Assembly: GCF_002803845.1 (NCBI RefSeq)
Contig: NZ_CP024985.1
Coordinates: forward strand, 3,906,001-3,970,000
Direction: 5' to 3'
Length of the DNA stretch: 64,000 nt
Origin: Streptomyces lavendulae subsp. lavendulae
GTDB lineage: Bacteria > Actinomycetota > Actinomycetes > Streptomycetales > Streptomycetaceae
The position numbers and the translations under genes are program-made. Below, one piece after another: positions 26,632-29,596 of this stretch; the first letter of the stretch is position 1, and each line of letters opens with the position of its first letter. Under the pieces are notes generated by a model. It searched no databases. It was given only the letters and a program-made list of their open reading frames with translations, and was not told where the DNA came from.

Positions 26632-27237
26632 TCAGCTGCCGGCGATGACGACGACCAGCACGATGACGAGGGCCACGAAGAAGATCCCGCACCCCCAGAG
26701 CATCCCGGCCATCATCCGGCCCTCGCGGACCGCCTGCCGCTCCATGCGGGCCAGCGCCTGCGGATCCCGCTCCCAGTCCGGGCCGCGCAGCTCCTCCCAG
26801 GCGGCCCGGATCAGGCCGATCTCGCGCGCGACGTCGACGTGGTTGTCGTCCACGTACATGAGCTGGACGCGGCGGCCCGTGGAGTCGTAGGCGTACGAGA
26901 TCACGCGCGGCTGGTTCTTGTTCATCGCGGCATTCGGATTGGGCACGGCCCGGATCTCCTGGATCTCCTCCCAGGCCAGGCGACGGCTCCCGGTGAAGCG
27001 GCGGACCCGCACGCCCTTGAGGTCGGCGGAGGTCGCGCAGCGCTTGGAGGCCCACAGCAGCCAGCCGAAGAGGACCAGGACCACCGCGATGAGCACCAGT
27101 TTCACCCCGGCGGCCACGTCGTCCAGGTTGAGCACGGACAGGACGACGCCCGGCGTACCGATGCCGACCGCGACGTACGCGGCGGACATCTGCCGGGATC
27201 CGATCCGGTAGTCGCGCGGCAGCAGCTCGGCGCTCAT
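26632..27237 (-). CDS. Membrane protein with PH-like domain
   Basis: The 201-residue protein has two N-terminal transmembrane helices (about residues 20-64) and a soluble PH-like middle part (about 66-125; GVRVRRFTGSRRLAWEEIQEI). A helical stretch and a C-terminal transmembrane helix (about 175-199) complete it. This is the common actinomycete bacterial PH-domain membrane family of unknown function. ATG 27237 has AGGGGTG upstream. Confidence 0.75.
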   Translation of the reverse strand: MSAELLPRDYRIGSRQMSAAYVAVGIGTPGVVLSVLNLDDVAAGVKLVLIAVVLVLFGWLLWASKRCATSADLKGVRVRRFTGSRRLAWEEIQEIRAVPNPNAAMNKNQPRVISYAYDSTGRRVQLMYVDDNHVDVAREIGLIRAAWEELRGPDWERDPQALARMERQAVREGRMMAGMLWGCGIFFVALVIVLVVVIAGS

Positions 27238-27301: not shown

Positions 27302-27331
27302 TTGAGGGGGTCGATCGGAGCCCGATAAATA
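27302..27331 (+). promoter_or_regulatory. Predicted vegetative promoter for a non-coding transcript
   Basis: TTGAGG (27302-27307) and TAAATA (27326-27331) are separated by 18 bp and resemble HrdB-type -35 and -10 boxes. The region is clearly AT-richer than its surroundings. It points to the plus strand, where no gene follows before the convergent pdxH. Confidence 0.6.
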
Positions 27332-27337
27332 GGGTTG

Positions 27338-27585
27338 AGGACCTCCGGCAGGAGGCCTAGGCTCTGCCGTACACGAGAAGGGAGGTGGTTCCCGAAATGT
27401 ACGGAAACCGGACGCGTGAGGTGGCTGCGGGCTAAGGGCCCGTCGTCGCACGCACCCAGTGCGGTGCCCGGCGGGATCGCCGAGCGCCAATCCCAAGCAG
27501 TCACCCGACCCGCGGGCTCGCCGGTACGTCCGGCCGGCTCCTCTCACTGCAGGAGAGGAACCCGAGCCCGCGGGTCGTCTGCATG
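27338..27585 (+). ncRNA. Candidate structured small RNA with a 12-codon mini-ORF
   Basis: The 389-bp gap between two minus-strand genes holds a plus-strand promoter, a small hairpin CCTCC-GGCA-GGAGG (27342-27355) and a ribosome site GGGAGGTGG. A 12-codon frame from ATG 27397 to TAA 27435 encodes MYGNRTREVAAG. A final large hairpin has a 15-bp perfect outer stem pairing 27506-27520 with 27563-27577, enclosing two smaller hairpins including TCCTCTC/GAGAGGA. I see no long coding frame. The unit looks like a self-contained transcript of about 240 nt. It matches no RNA family I can name. Confidence 0.5.
27506..27577. terminator. Large hairpin ending the candidate RNA and the convergent pdxH transcript
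   Basis: Positions 27506-27520 and 27563-27577 form a perfect 15-bp stem. Inside it, CCGG(27521)/CCGG(27530) and TCCTCTC(27539)/GAGAGGA(27553) form sub-hairpins. It sits 50 bp past the pdxH stop and probably works in both directions. Confidence 0.75.
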
Positions 27586-28489: not shown

Positions 28490-29596
28490 ATGTCCGATTT
28501 CGTACCCGGACTCGAAGGGGTCGTCGCGTTCGAGACGGAGATCGCCGAGCCCGACAAGGAAGGCGGATCGCTCCGCTACCGGGGGGTGGACATCGAAGAC
28601 CTGGTCGGCCACGTCTCCTTCGGGAACGTGTGGGGCCTGCTGGTCGACGGAGCGTTCAACCCCGGCCTGCCGGCCGCCGAGCCCTTCCCCATCCCGGTGC
28701 ACTCGGGCGACATCCGCGTCGACGTGCAGTCCGCCCTGGCCATGCTCGCGCCGGTCTGGGGCCTGAAACCGCTGCTGGACATCGACGAGCGGACCGCGCG
28801 CGACGACCTGGCGCGGGCCGCCGTCATGGCGCTGTCCTACGTCGCCCAGTCCGCCCGCGGCCAGGGCCTGCCGATGGTGCCGCAGCGCGAGATCGACAAG
28901 GCCGAGTCCGTCGTCGAGCGGTTCATGATCCGCTGGCGGGGCGAGCCCGACCCCAAGCACGTCAAGGCCGTCGACGCCTACTGGACCTCGGCCGCCGAGC
29001 ACGGCATGAACGCCTCCACCTTCACCGCCCGGGTGATCGCCTCGACCGGTGCCGACGTCGCCGCGGCGCTGTCCGGCGCCGTGGGCGCGATGTCCGGGCC
29101 GCTGCACGGCGGGGCGCCCTCGCGCGTCCTCGGCATGATCGAGGAGATCGAGCGCACCGGCGACGCCGTGGCCTACGTGAAGAAGGCCCTGGACAAGGGC
29201 GAGCGGCTGATGGGCTTCGGGCACCGCGTCTACCGCGCCGAGGACCCCCGCGCCCGCGTGCTGCGGCGCACCGCCAAGGAGCTGGACGCCCCGCGCTACG
29301 AGGTCGCCGCCGCCCTGGAGAAGGCCGCCCTGGAGGAGCTGCACGCCCGCCGCCCCGACCGGGTGCTGGCGACCAACGTGGAGTTCTGGGCCGCGATCAT
29401 GCTGGACTTCGCGGAGGTCCCGGCGCACATGTTCACCTCCATGTTCAGCTGCGCCCGTACCGCCGGCTGGTCGGCGCACATCCTGGAGCAGAAGCGCACC
29501 GGGCGGCTGGTGCGGCCGTCGGCCCGCTACGTGGGGCCGGGGCGCCGCAACCCCGCCGACATCGAGGGCTACGCGGACATCGCCGAGACCGCCTGA
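28490..29596 (+). CDS. citA: Citrate synthase (short type 2)
   Basis: The 368-residue enzyme condenses oxaloacetate and acetyl-CoA. It carries the N-terminal segment LRYRGVDIEDL, the active-site region GPLHGGAPSRVL (about residues 203-214), the catalytic GFGHRVYRAEDPR (His near 246) and the C-terminal Asp/Arg region NVEFWAAIMLDF. It is the short Gram-positive form, a likely second citrate or methylcitrate synthase; the main one is not in the window. ATG 28490 follows GAGGAGCCGCCTG. Confidence 0.95.
   Translation: MSDFVPGLEGVVAFETEIAEPDKEGGSLRYRGVDIEDLVGHVSFGNVWGLLVDGAFNPGLPAAEPFPIPVHSGDIRVDVQSALAMLAPVWGLKPLLDIDERTARDDLARAAVMALSYVAQSARGQGLPMVPQREIDKAESVVERFMIRWRGEPDPKHVKAVDAYWTSAAEHGMNASTFTARVIASTGADVAAALSGAVGAMSGPLHGGAPSRVLGMIEEIERTGDAVAYVKKALDKGERLMGFGHRVYRAEDPRARVLRRTAKELDAPRYEVAAALEKAALEELHARRPDRVLATNVEFWAAIMLDFAEVPAHMFTSMFSCARTAGWSAHILEQKRTGRLVRPSARYVGPGRRNPADIEGYADIAETA

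Follow-up and report, generated by a model that had tools for sequence, protein, structure and literature searches.

A widespread actinobacterial small RNA, Ms_IGR-5, carries a conserved mini-ORF whose strand appears to be part of the RNA fold and may act as a ribosome-operated switch

Comparison of homologues of an intergenic element of Streptomyces lavendulae subsp. lavendulae shows a stand-alone small RNA with a conserved 12-codon mini-ORF, the strand of which also appears to be a structural strand of the RNA. The element lies within a stretch of 64,000 nucleotides, hereafter the window. The frame, start position and stop position of the mini-ORF are maintained among the homologues, the encoded peptide drifts, and covariation supports three pairings of the ORF strand, i.e., P0 with the 5' end of the RNA, P2 with the nucleotides that directly precede the terminator domain, and a pseudoknot (PK) with a terminator-domain loop. 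We propose, with a confidence just short of an even chance, that the element is a stand-alone RNA switch worked by the passage of a ribosome. The features of the locus are listed in Table 1.

Table 1. Features of the RNA locus, in window positions; RNA ends, promoter boxes and pairings are predicted
Feature	Position	Strand	Remarks
A/T tract (UP-like element)	27325-27331	+	upstream of -35; by eye
Putative -35 box TTGAGG	27335-27340	+	sequence, by eye
Putative -10 box TAGGCT	27358-27363	+	sequence, by eye; 17 nt from -35
sRNA, Ms_IGR-5 family	27371-27585	+	cmscan, fold; both ends predicted
P0 5' strand	27372-27375	+	RNA 5' end, pairs with 27415-27418
Extended Shine-Dalgarno AGAAGGGAGGTGGTTC	27376-27391	+	16 contiguous pairs possible with 16S 3' tail, G.U allowed
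P1 5' strand	27388-27391	+	may pair instead with ORF GGAC 27410-27413, leaving the start codon in the loop
Mini-ORF MYGNRTREVAAG, 12 codons + TAA	27397-27435	+	frame, start position and stop position conserved
PK ORF strand GGACG	27410-27414	+	codons 5-6, pairs with 27527-27531
P0 3' strand	27415-27418	+	ORF codons 7-8
P2 5' strand	27420-27429	+	ORF codons 8-11
P4 5' segment	27428-27451	+	holds stop codon; approximate
P4 3' segment	27462-27488	+	approximate
Conserved bulge CAATCCCA	27488-27495	+	between P4 and P2; columns around AATYCC in alignment A1, by eye
P2 3' strand AGCAGTCACC	27496-27505	+	10 nt just before terminator domain
Compound terminator-domain hairpin	27506-27577	+	predicted fold
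PK loop strand CGTCC	27527-27531	+	first terminator-domain hairpin loop

A cmscan search of the whole window returned one match above the gathering score, RF02471 (Ms_IGR-5, 'Actinobacteria sRNA'), covering positions 27371-27583 of the + strand at full length with 83.9 bits against a gathering score of 45 (E 4.4e-17). The structured RNA unit put forward in the preliminary description of this DNA is thus real, and of the refuting conditions named there, those on conservation and covariation do not hold: the RNA is present in relatives, and base-pair covariation is seen in homologue alignments for P0, P2 and PK. Profile searches with RF02471 found it in 148 of the 150 genomes of the genus, in 192 of 296 genomes of the class and in 70 of 396 of the phylum (35 of the 70 above the cut-off), and in 0 of 14 control genomes; the distribution in this sample is actinobacterial, as is that of the family. 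The window RNA shares with the published Ms_IGR-5 its full-length match, its phylum and the transcription of homologues. The S. lividans homologue (SLIV_16488) is given as transcribed (PMC8079986), and one sRNA unit reported from S. avermitilis is MS_IGR-5 (PMC8780764); S. coelicolor scr4389 (PMC8388888) may be a further homologue. Ribosomal reads cover the MS_IGR-5 homologues of M. abscessus and M. smegmatis according to the available text of PMC4974804, which itself cautions that footprints can also arise on non-coding RNAs. The available part of a survey of coding by sRNAs, S. coelicolor included, names no such RNA (PMC5521070). Our literature search found no function for Ms_IGR-5/RF02471 and no report linking Rv0812/Rv0813c with an sRNA. 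The accessible portions of the published accounts of Ms_IGR-5 do not describe the mini-ORF, P0, P2 or PK, and conservation of the ORF, drift of its peptide and the identity of ORF strand and structural strand were not found described in the literature.

The window and 156 loci, 157 sequences in all, were searched for the anchor, a Shine-Dalgarno sequence (SD) followed by GAGGTG, which was present in 153 and missed in L074, L152, L153 and L154. Among 140 distinct 5' segments, 129 have an ATG, GTG or TTG at an SD spacing of 7-11 in the frame of the motif, compared with 1 and 8 segments for the two alternative frames; if an end at the conserved place is required as well, 128 segments remain in frame and 0 in either of the others. 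A stop triplet occupied the same offset in 137 of 140 distinct sequences. Because the distance from SD to GAGGTG takes all values modulo 3 (75, 32 and 32 of 139), the start tracks the frame. The start codons of 139 sequences were ATG (59), TTG (46), GTG (24), CTG (4), ATT (3), ATC (2) and ACG (1); the ORF had 12 codons in 116 of the 139, and ended with TAG in 119, TGA in 14 and TAA in 6. Before the conserved stop, an in-frame stop occurred in 1 of 139 (L075) compared with 104 and 123 for the other frames, counts that are partly uninformative, since the motif itself supplies most of the +1 stops. When only the codons ahead of GAGGTG were considered, stops were found in 1, 5 and 63 of 129 by frame, and in this part the +1 frame is nearly as open as the ORF frame. 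By this comparison the mini-ORF is conserved as an ORF, and the 12-codon mini-ORF pointed out earlier, which runs from ATG to TAA in the window, stands. CTG, ATT, ATC or ACG starts were observed in the distant members L059, L061, L064, L062, L069, L070, L072 and L076, which have an extended SD at about the normal distance.

The codon-change analysis, limited to 237 distinct 12-codon ORFs and to changes between near neighbours, gave a different result for the peptide. Codons 2-4 are about neutral, with a synonymous fraction of 0.22 where 0.20 is expected (codon 2, 6% against 14% expected; codon 4, 35% against 23%). Changes are nearly all non-synonymous at codon 7 (0 of 76 synonymous), codon 10 (4 of 105, i.e., 0.04 against 0.33 expected) and codon 12 (8 of 156). 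Synonymous changes exceed the expectation at codon 6 (0.80 against 0.31) and codon 11 (0.67 against 0.33), an excess that is explained by the paired first and second bases of these codons, although selection on the peptide could give the same pattern. Threonine at position 6 is found in 224 and arginine at position 7 in 164 of the 237 ORFs; E8 and V9 are invariant, yet demanded by the search motif. Furthermore, 11 loci from four families (L075, L077, L309, L310, L312 and L316-L321; L309 and L310 being alike and L316 having a variant motif) reach the stop at the same place in another frame. They start 6-9 nt after the SD, with ATT, ATC or ATA in L075, L316 and L317, and encode peptides ending in SGGGSS or SGGDC instead of TREVAA; the frame shift of these loci may be a single event. 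Together these comparisons suggest that the sequence of the peptide is not what evolution keeps, with little selection beyond the RNA pairs.

Helices were examined in 128 usable homologues, from which 24 loci with a P2 partner absent or weak by eye and L051, the window's own copy, had been left out, and 79 of these, thinned by hand, formed alignment A1. All counts over homologues, those of the ORF as well as those of covariation against shuffles, are raw, with no correction for kinship. For P2, 94.8% of the cells were paired, with 49 double-change cells against 13.0 ± 2.9 in shuffles (0/500), and slid versions reached 24-59%; the number of P2 pairs with a double change (5) was not above shuffles (150/500). 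For P0, 96.9% were paired, with 38 double-change cells against 8.7 in shuffles and 9-73% for slid versions; its count of pairs with a double change was not clearly above shuffles (47/500). RNAalifold recovered both P2 and P0, the latter as the first nucleotides of the RNA with codons 6-8. P1 is mostly invariant (97.5% paired, 3 double-change cells against 0.8 in shuffles). When partners were swapped, the cognate duplex had the better energy in 63 of 73 cases for P2, 37 of 50 for P0, 106 of 124 for P4 and 55 of 92 for P1. P4, around the stop codon, is less certain as a fourth helix. The minimum-free-energy fold of the window RNA alone contains 0 of 4 P0 pairs, 0 of 9 P2 pairs and 0 of 4 P1 pairs. 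The first helix of the Rfam consensus was not adopted, as 90.5% of its cells in A1 were paired with 0 double-change cells, no better than shuffles. Some members, mostly distant, have no clear P2 partner. In family f91 (L094, L103, L104, L107 and L131), P2 grows to 11-12 pairs, formed by GGUGGCUGCUCG with CGAGCAGUCACC.

In the window, the pseudoknot would pair G27410-G27414 with C27527-C27531, all Watson-Crick. GTCC is found within the first 60 nt of the terminator domain in 125 of the 128 homologues, and in 80 of these 125 at least three of its four bases are unpaired in the predicted fold. All 123 of the 128 sequences that carry GGAC in the ORF have GTCC, and of the five with GGAT, three carry ATCC without GTCC, one has both and one has GTCC. 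The same tendency was seen among 308 distinct elements, in which a GTCC loop accompanies GGAC in 270 of 287 and ATCC accompanies GGAT in 12 of 14. Loop sites were also assigned by a rule that is independent of the ORF but was drawn up with the variants already known; it left 294 sites, 10 loci having been dropped by judgement as wrongly located and 4 having no loop site. These sites comprised GGAC-GTCC (271), GGAC-ATCC (6), GGAT-ATCC (11) and GGAT-GTCC (2), and the rarer pairs TGAC-GTCA (2), TGAC-GTCG (1) and CGAC-GTCG (1). By the rule, no loop site was found in L340 (TGAC) and L396 (AGAC), and the lone TGAC-GTCG site is that of L344, where a second alignment, A2, places GTCA instead. In 64% of cases, compared with 40% in shuffles, the third base of codon 6 is complementary to the base preceding GUCC, and the other three varying PK positions were also above all 1000 shuffles. 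On A2, which consists of 51 hand-picked sequences enriched for the GGAT, TGAC and CGAC variants, PK had 40 double-change cells against 15.5 in shuffles (0/500), and slides dropped to 19-39%; double changes were found at 4 PK pairs, a number not above that of shuffles (128/500). Considered jointly, P0, PK and P2 were 94.5% paired with 85 double-change cells against 20.8 in shuffles. Covariation thus supports P0, P2 and PK, and with them an ORF strand that is also structural. P1 was rejected as the main partner of the ORF GGAC on its 3 double-change cells against the 40 of PK, and is kept as an alternative.

The ribosome site, previously described only as good, is exceptional in that 16 consecutive nucleotides of the 16S tail can be paired; the tail sequence used is also that of the genome's own 16S ends. 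In 118 of the 128 homologues, 16 or 17 consecutive nucleotides are pairable with the tail, and of 370 GGAGG sites in the window only one, that of the mini-ORF, reaches 16. The 16-nt pattern occurs at 10 sites in the 8.93 Mb genome, six of which are on the antisense strand at 16S 3' ends; the other four are one site that is 16S-antisense-like up to a masked stretch, two with a GGGGG core, and this RNA. One of the two GGGGG-core sites is L159 (around 569-700), where GGGAAGGGGGTGGTTC precedes an ATG that opens a frame of about 32 codons (MSDAESENSSGDHV...).

Transcription is predicted to start at 27371 and to give an RNA of about 207-215 nt, the predicted fold of which is more stable than those of all 200 shuffled sequences (z -4.26). 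The AT-rich promoter of the preliminary description holds in part. An A/T tract and -35 and -10 boxes can be seen by eye, and in the 128 homologues A is found at 77% and 85% at -43 and -42, T at 65% and 59% at -36 and -35, and a TANNNT box at -13 or -12 in 117 matches (72 and 45); a scan of the window locus for an E. coli-type promoter found none. Likewise, the large compound terminator hairpin is present in the predicted fold at 27506-27577, but it has no U tract and a simple terminator scan found no match. The 5' hairpin mentioned there perhaps refers to the inverted repeat CGGCAG/CTGCCG (27346-27351/27364-27369). This repeat lies upstream of the predicted start and flanks the -10 box, for which reason it was rejected as part of the RNA; by eye it is absent from the sister locus L054, and covariation backs a different 5' structure, P0.

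The RNA unit appears to stand alone, with no conserved gene seen downstream of it. The next recognised gene on the + strand of the window is that of citrate synthase at 28490, and pdxH is convergent with the RNA. A same-strand regulated gene, as expected downstream of an attenuator, is thus absent in the window. Downstream strands are mixed at the 150 loci to which a crude ORF caller was applied: the closest downstream ORF was on the - strand at 89 loci and on the + strand at 58, and none was called at 3. Both pdxH and citrate synthase adjoin the RNA in several families. L036, taken as mycobacterial, has an Aminotran_4 gene on one side and a gene for a THAP4-type haem-binding protein on the other; in a check of 21 of 80 listed named loci (20 mycobacterial and one Rhodococcus), an Aminotran_4 gene lay at most 1.1 kb upstream in 19 of 21 and a THAP4 gene at most 2 kb downstream in 16 of 21. 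Elsewhere the neighbours are an ABC transporter, an NlpC/P60 protein or a metallo-beta-lactamase. The PH-domain gene upstream of the RNA in the window (26632-27237, - strand) is not conserved beside it, and tblastn at 153 loci found it only at the window's own copy (window, L051) and at L054.

In the mechanism that we propose, the mini-ORF strand would double as a strand of P0, PK and P2, and ribosomes would be recruited by the long SD. To read the 10-15 codons, a ribosome would have to open P0, PK, P2 and P4; the folded and translated states would be mutually exclusive, with translation as the switch and the peptide as a by-product. Because nearly every base from codon 5 on sits in P0, PK, P2 or P4, a ribosome could hardly read the ORF in the standing fold. 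Since the conserved property is readability, starting at a very strong site and ending at a fixed stop, we assign the role of switch to translation and that of output to the 3' half. The likely output would be that, in one of the two states, a partner in trans, an mRNA or a protein, gains access to the GUCC loop, the AAUCCC bulge and the GCAGUCACC strand. The comparison shows the conservation of the ORF, the helices and the stand-alone context; translation in this organism, the switching, the trans output and the direction of the effect are what we infer. We also offer, tentatively and expecting it sooner to fail than to hold, a more far-reaching version in which the RNA senses translation itself. 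It would be a peptide-agnostic ribosome sensor in much of the phylum, would read the 16S 3' tail through its 16-17-nt SD, would be under selection for translation across a short, fixed distance irrespective of the peptide, and would toggle between a pseudoknotted and a ribosome-opened form, with the ORF GGAC pairing by turns with the SD flank as P1 and with the terminator-domain loop as PK. A concrete fold and mechanism are thereby proposed for a widespread sRNA family whose function was not found in the literature, and which also occurs in named mycobacteria and other actinobacteria; if true, it would be a natural case of evolution keeping the act of translation and not its product.

The stand-alone position, the promoter-like stretch, the terminator-like hairpin and the conserved bulge and loop would also fit an ordinary trans-acting, base-pairing sRNA with AAUCCC/GCAGUCACC or the GUCC loop as its seed, the translation of which only stabilises the RNA or is incidental. 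We regard this as unlikely, since incidental translation leaves the conserved frame, start and stop unexplained, including those of the other-frame loci, as well as the long tail match found in 118 of 128 homologues, and the would-be seed, a strand of P2, changes in step with the ORF. The RNA could also be a decoy or sensor for ribosomes or the 16S tail, which would hold the 30S subunit through the tail and report or limit free ribosomes, with the ORF releasing them. Runs of at least 16 pairable nucleotides are common among the homologues and confined to the RNA's own site among the GGAGG sites of the window, and TTG and GTG starts are frequent, with CTG, ATT, ATC and ACG also occurring. Such a decoy alone does not explain PK, P2, P4 and the conserved bulge, and we consider it improbable. 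The preliminary description had left open a regulatory RNA, a dual-function RNA and an attenuator remnant, and of these a regulatory RNA with a translated ORF has the support of its conservation and covariation, along with expression and Ribo-seq data published for homologues. SgrS and RNAIII are dual-function sRNAs with an ORF, and the window RNA resembles them as a stand-alone RNA with an apparently translated ORF that has a conserved frame, start and stop and a ribosome site. It differs from them in a peptide that looks unselected and an ORF strand that would be part of the fold. A functional peptide, as in a classic dual-function RNA, could account for the frequent T6 and R7 and the synonymous excess at codons 6 and 11, but all of these fall within PK, P0 and P2, codons 7, 10 and 12 change nearly only non-synonymously, codons 2-4 are about neutral, and the 11 other-frame loci encode a different peptide. 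On the codon changes and these loci we rejected this reading as very improbable; sequence comparison does not point to a peptide with a function of its own.

A role in cis, as an attenuator or antisense element of an adjacent gene, here pdxH, has in its favour that the RNA lies near pdxH or citrate synthase in several families. However, pdxH is convergent with the RNA here, lies on its other side in L086, L093 and L095, and was not found beside many loci, and the neighbouring genes differ between loci. With the mixed downstream strands at the 150 loci, this explanation was rejected and seems to us barely credible. An attenuator remnant is not supported either, because 148 of 150 genomes keep the RNA without a consistent same-strand gene downstream. 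Leader-peptide attenuators and uORFs resemble the window RNA in having a short ORF whose translation would alter RNA pairing; the available part of PMC13009471 describes an arginine-sensing uORF, and also reports extended SDs and non-canonical starts. Unlike such leaders, the window RNA has no consistent downstream gene, and its codons 2-4 do not show the conservation of sensor codons. tmRNA combines a pseudoknotted structure with a short ORF, features that the window RNA appears to share, but it was rejected, as ARAGORN finds no tRNA-like domain and 0 tRNA or tmRNA genes in the window.

The family may extend beyond the matches of the Rfam model. A new covariance model with P0, P1 and P2, R1, which was built partly from the 396 phylum genomes searched, has matches in 137 of these genomes compared with 70 for the Rfam model, its E-values being rough and its search limited to the phylum genomes. 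Of 40 regions drawn from the R1 matches, 39 have an SD and a short ORF, with none in L311 and an uncertain one in L315. Among the genomes listed, 14 from genus g9 of family f7 have no match and six have one, and the five listed genomes of family f8 have none; these missing matches may reflect lineage-specific loss. Two matches each were found in G366, G607, G870, G078 and G069, which are possible duplicates or, in G870, overlapping matches.
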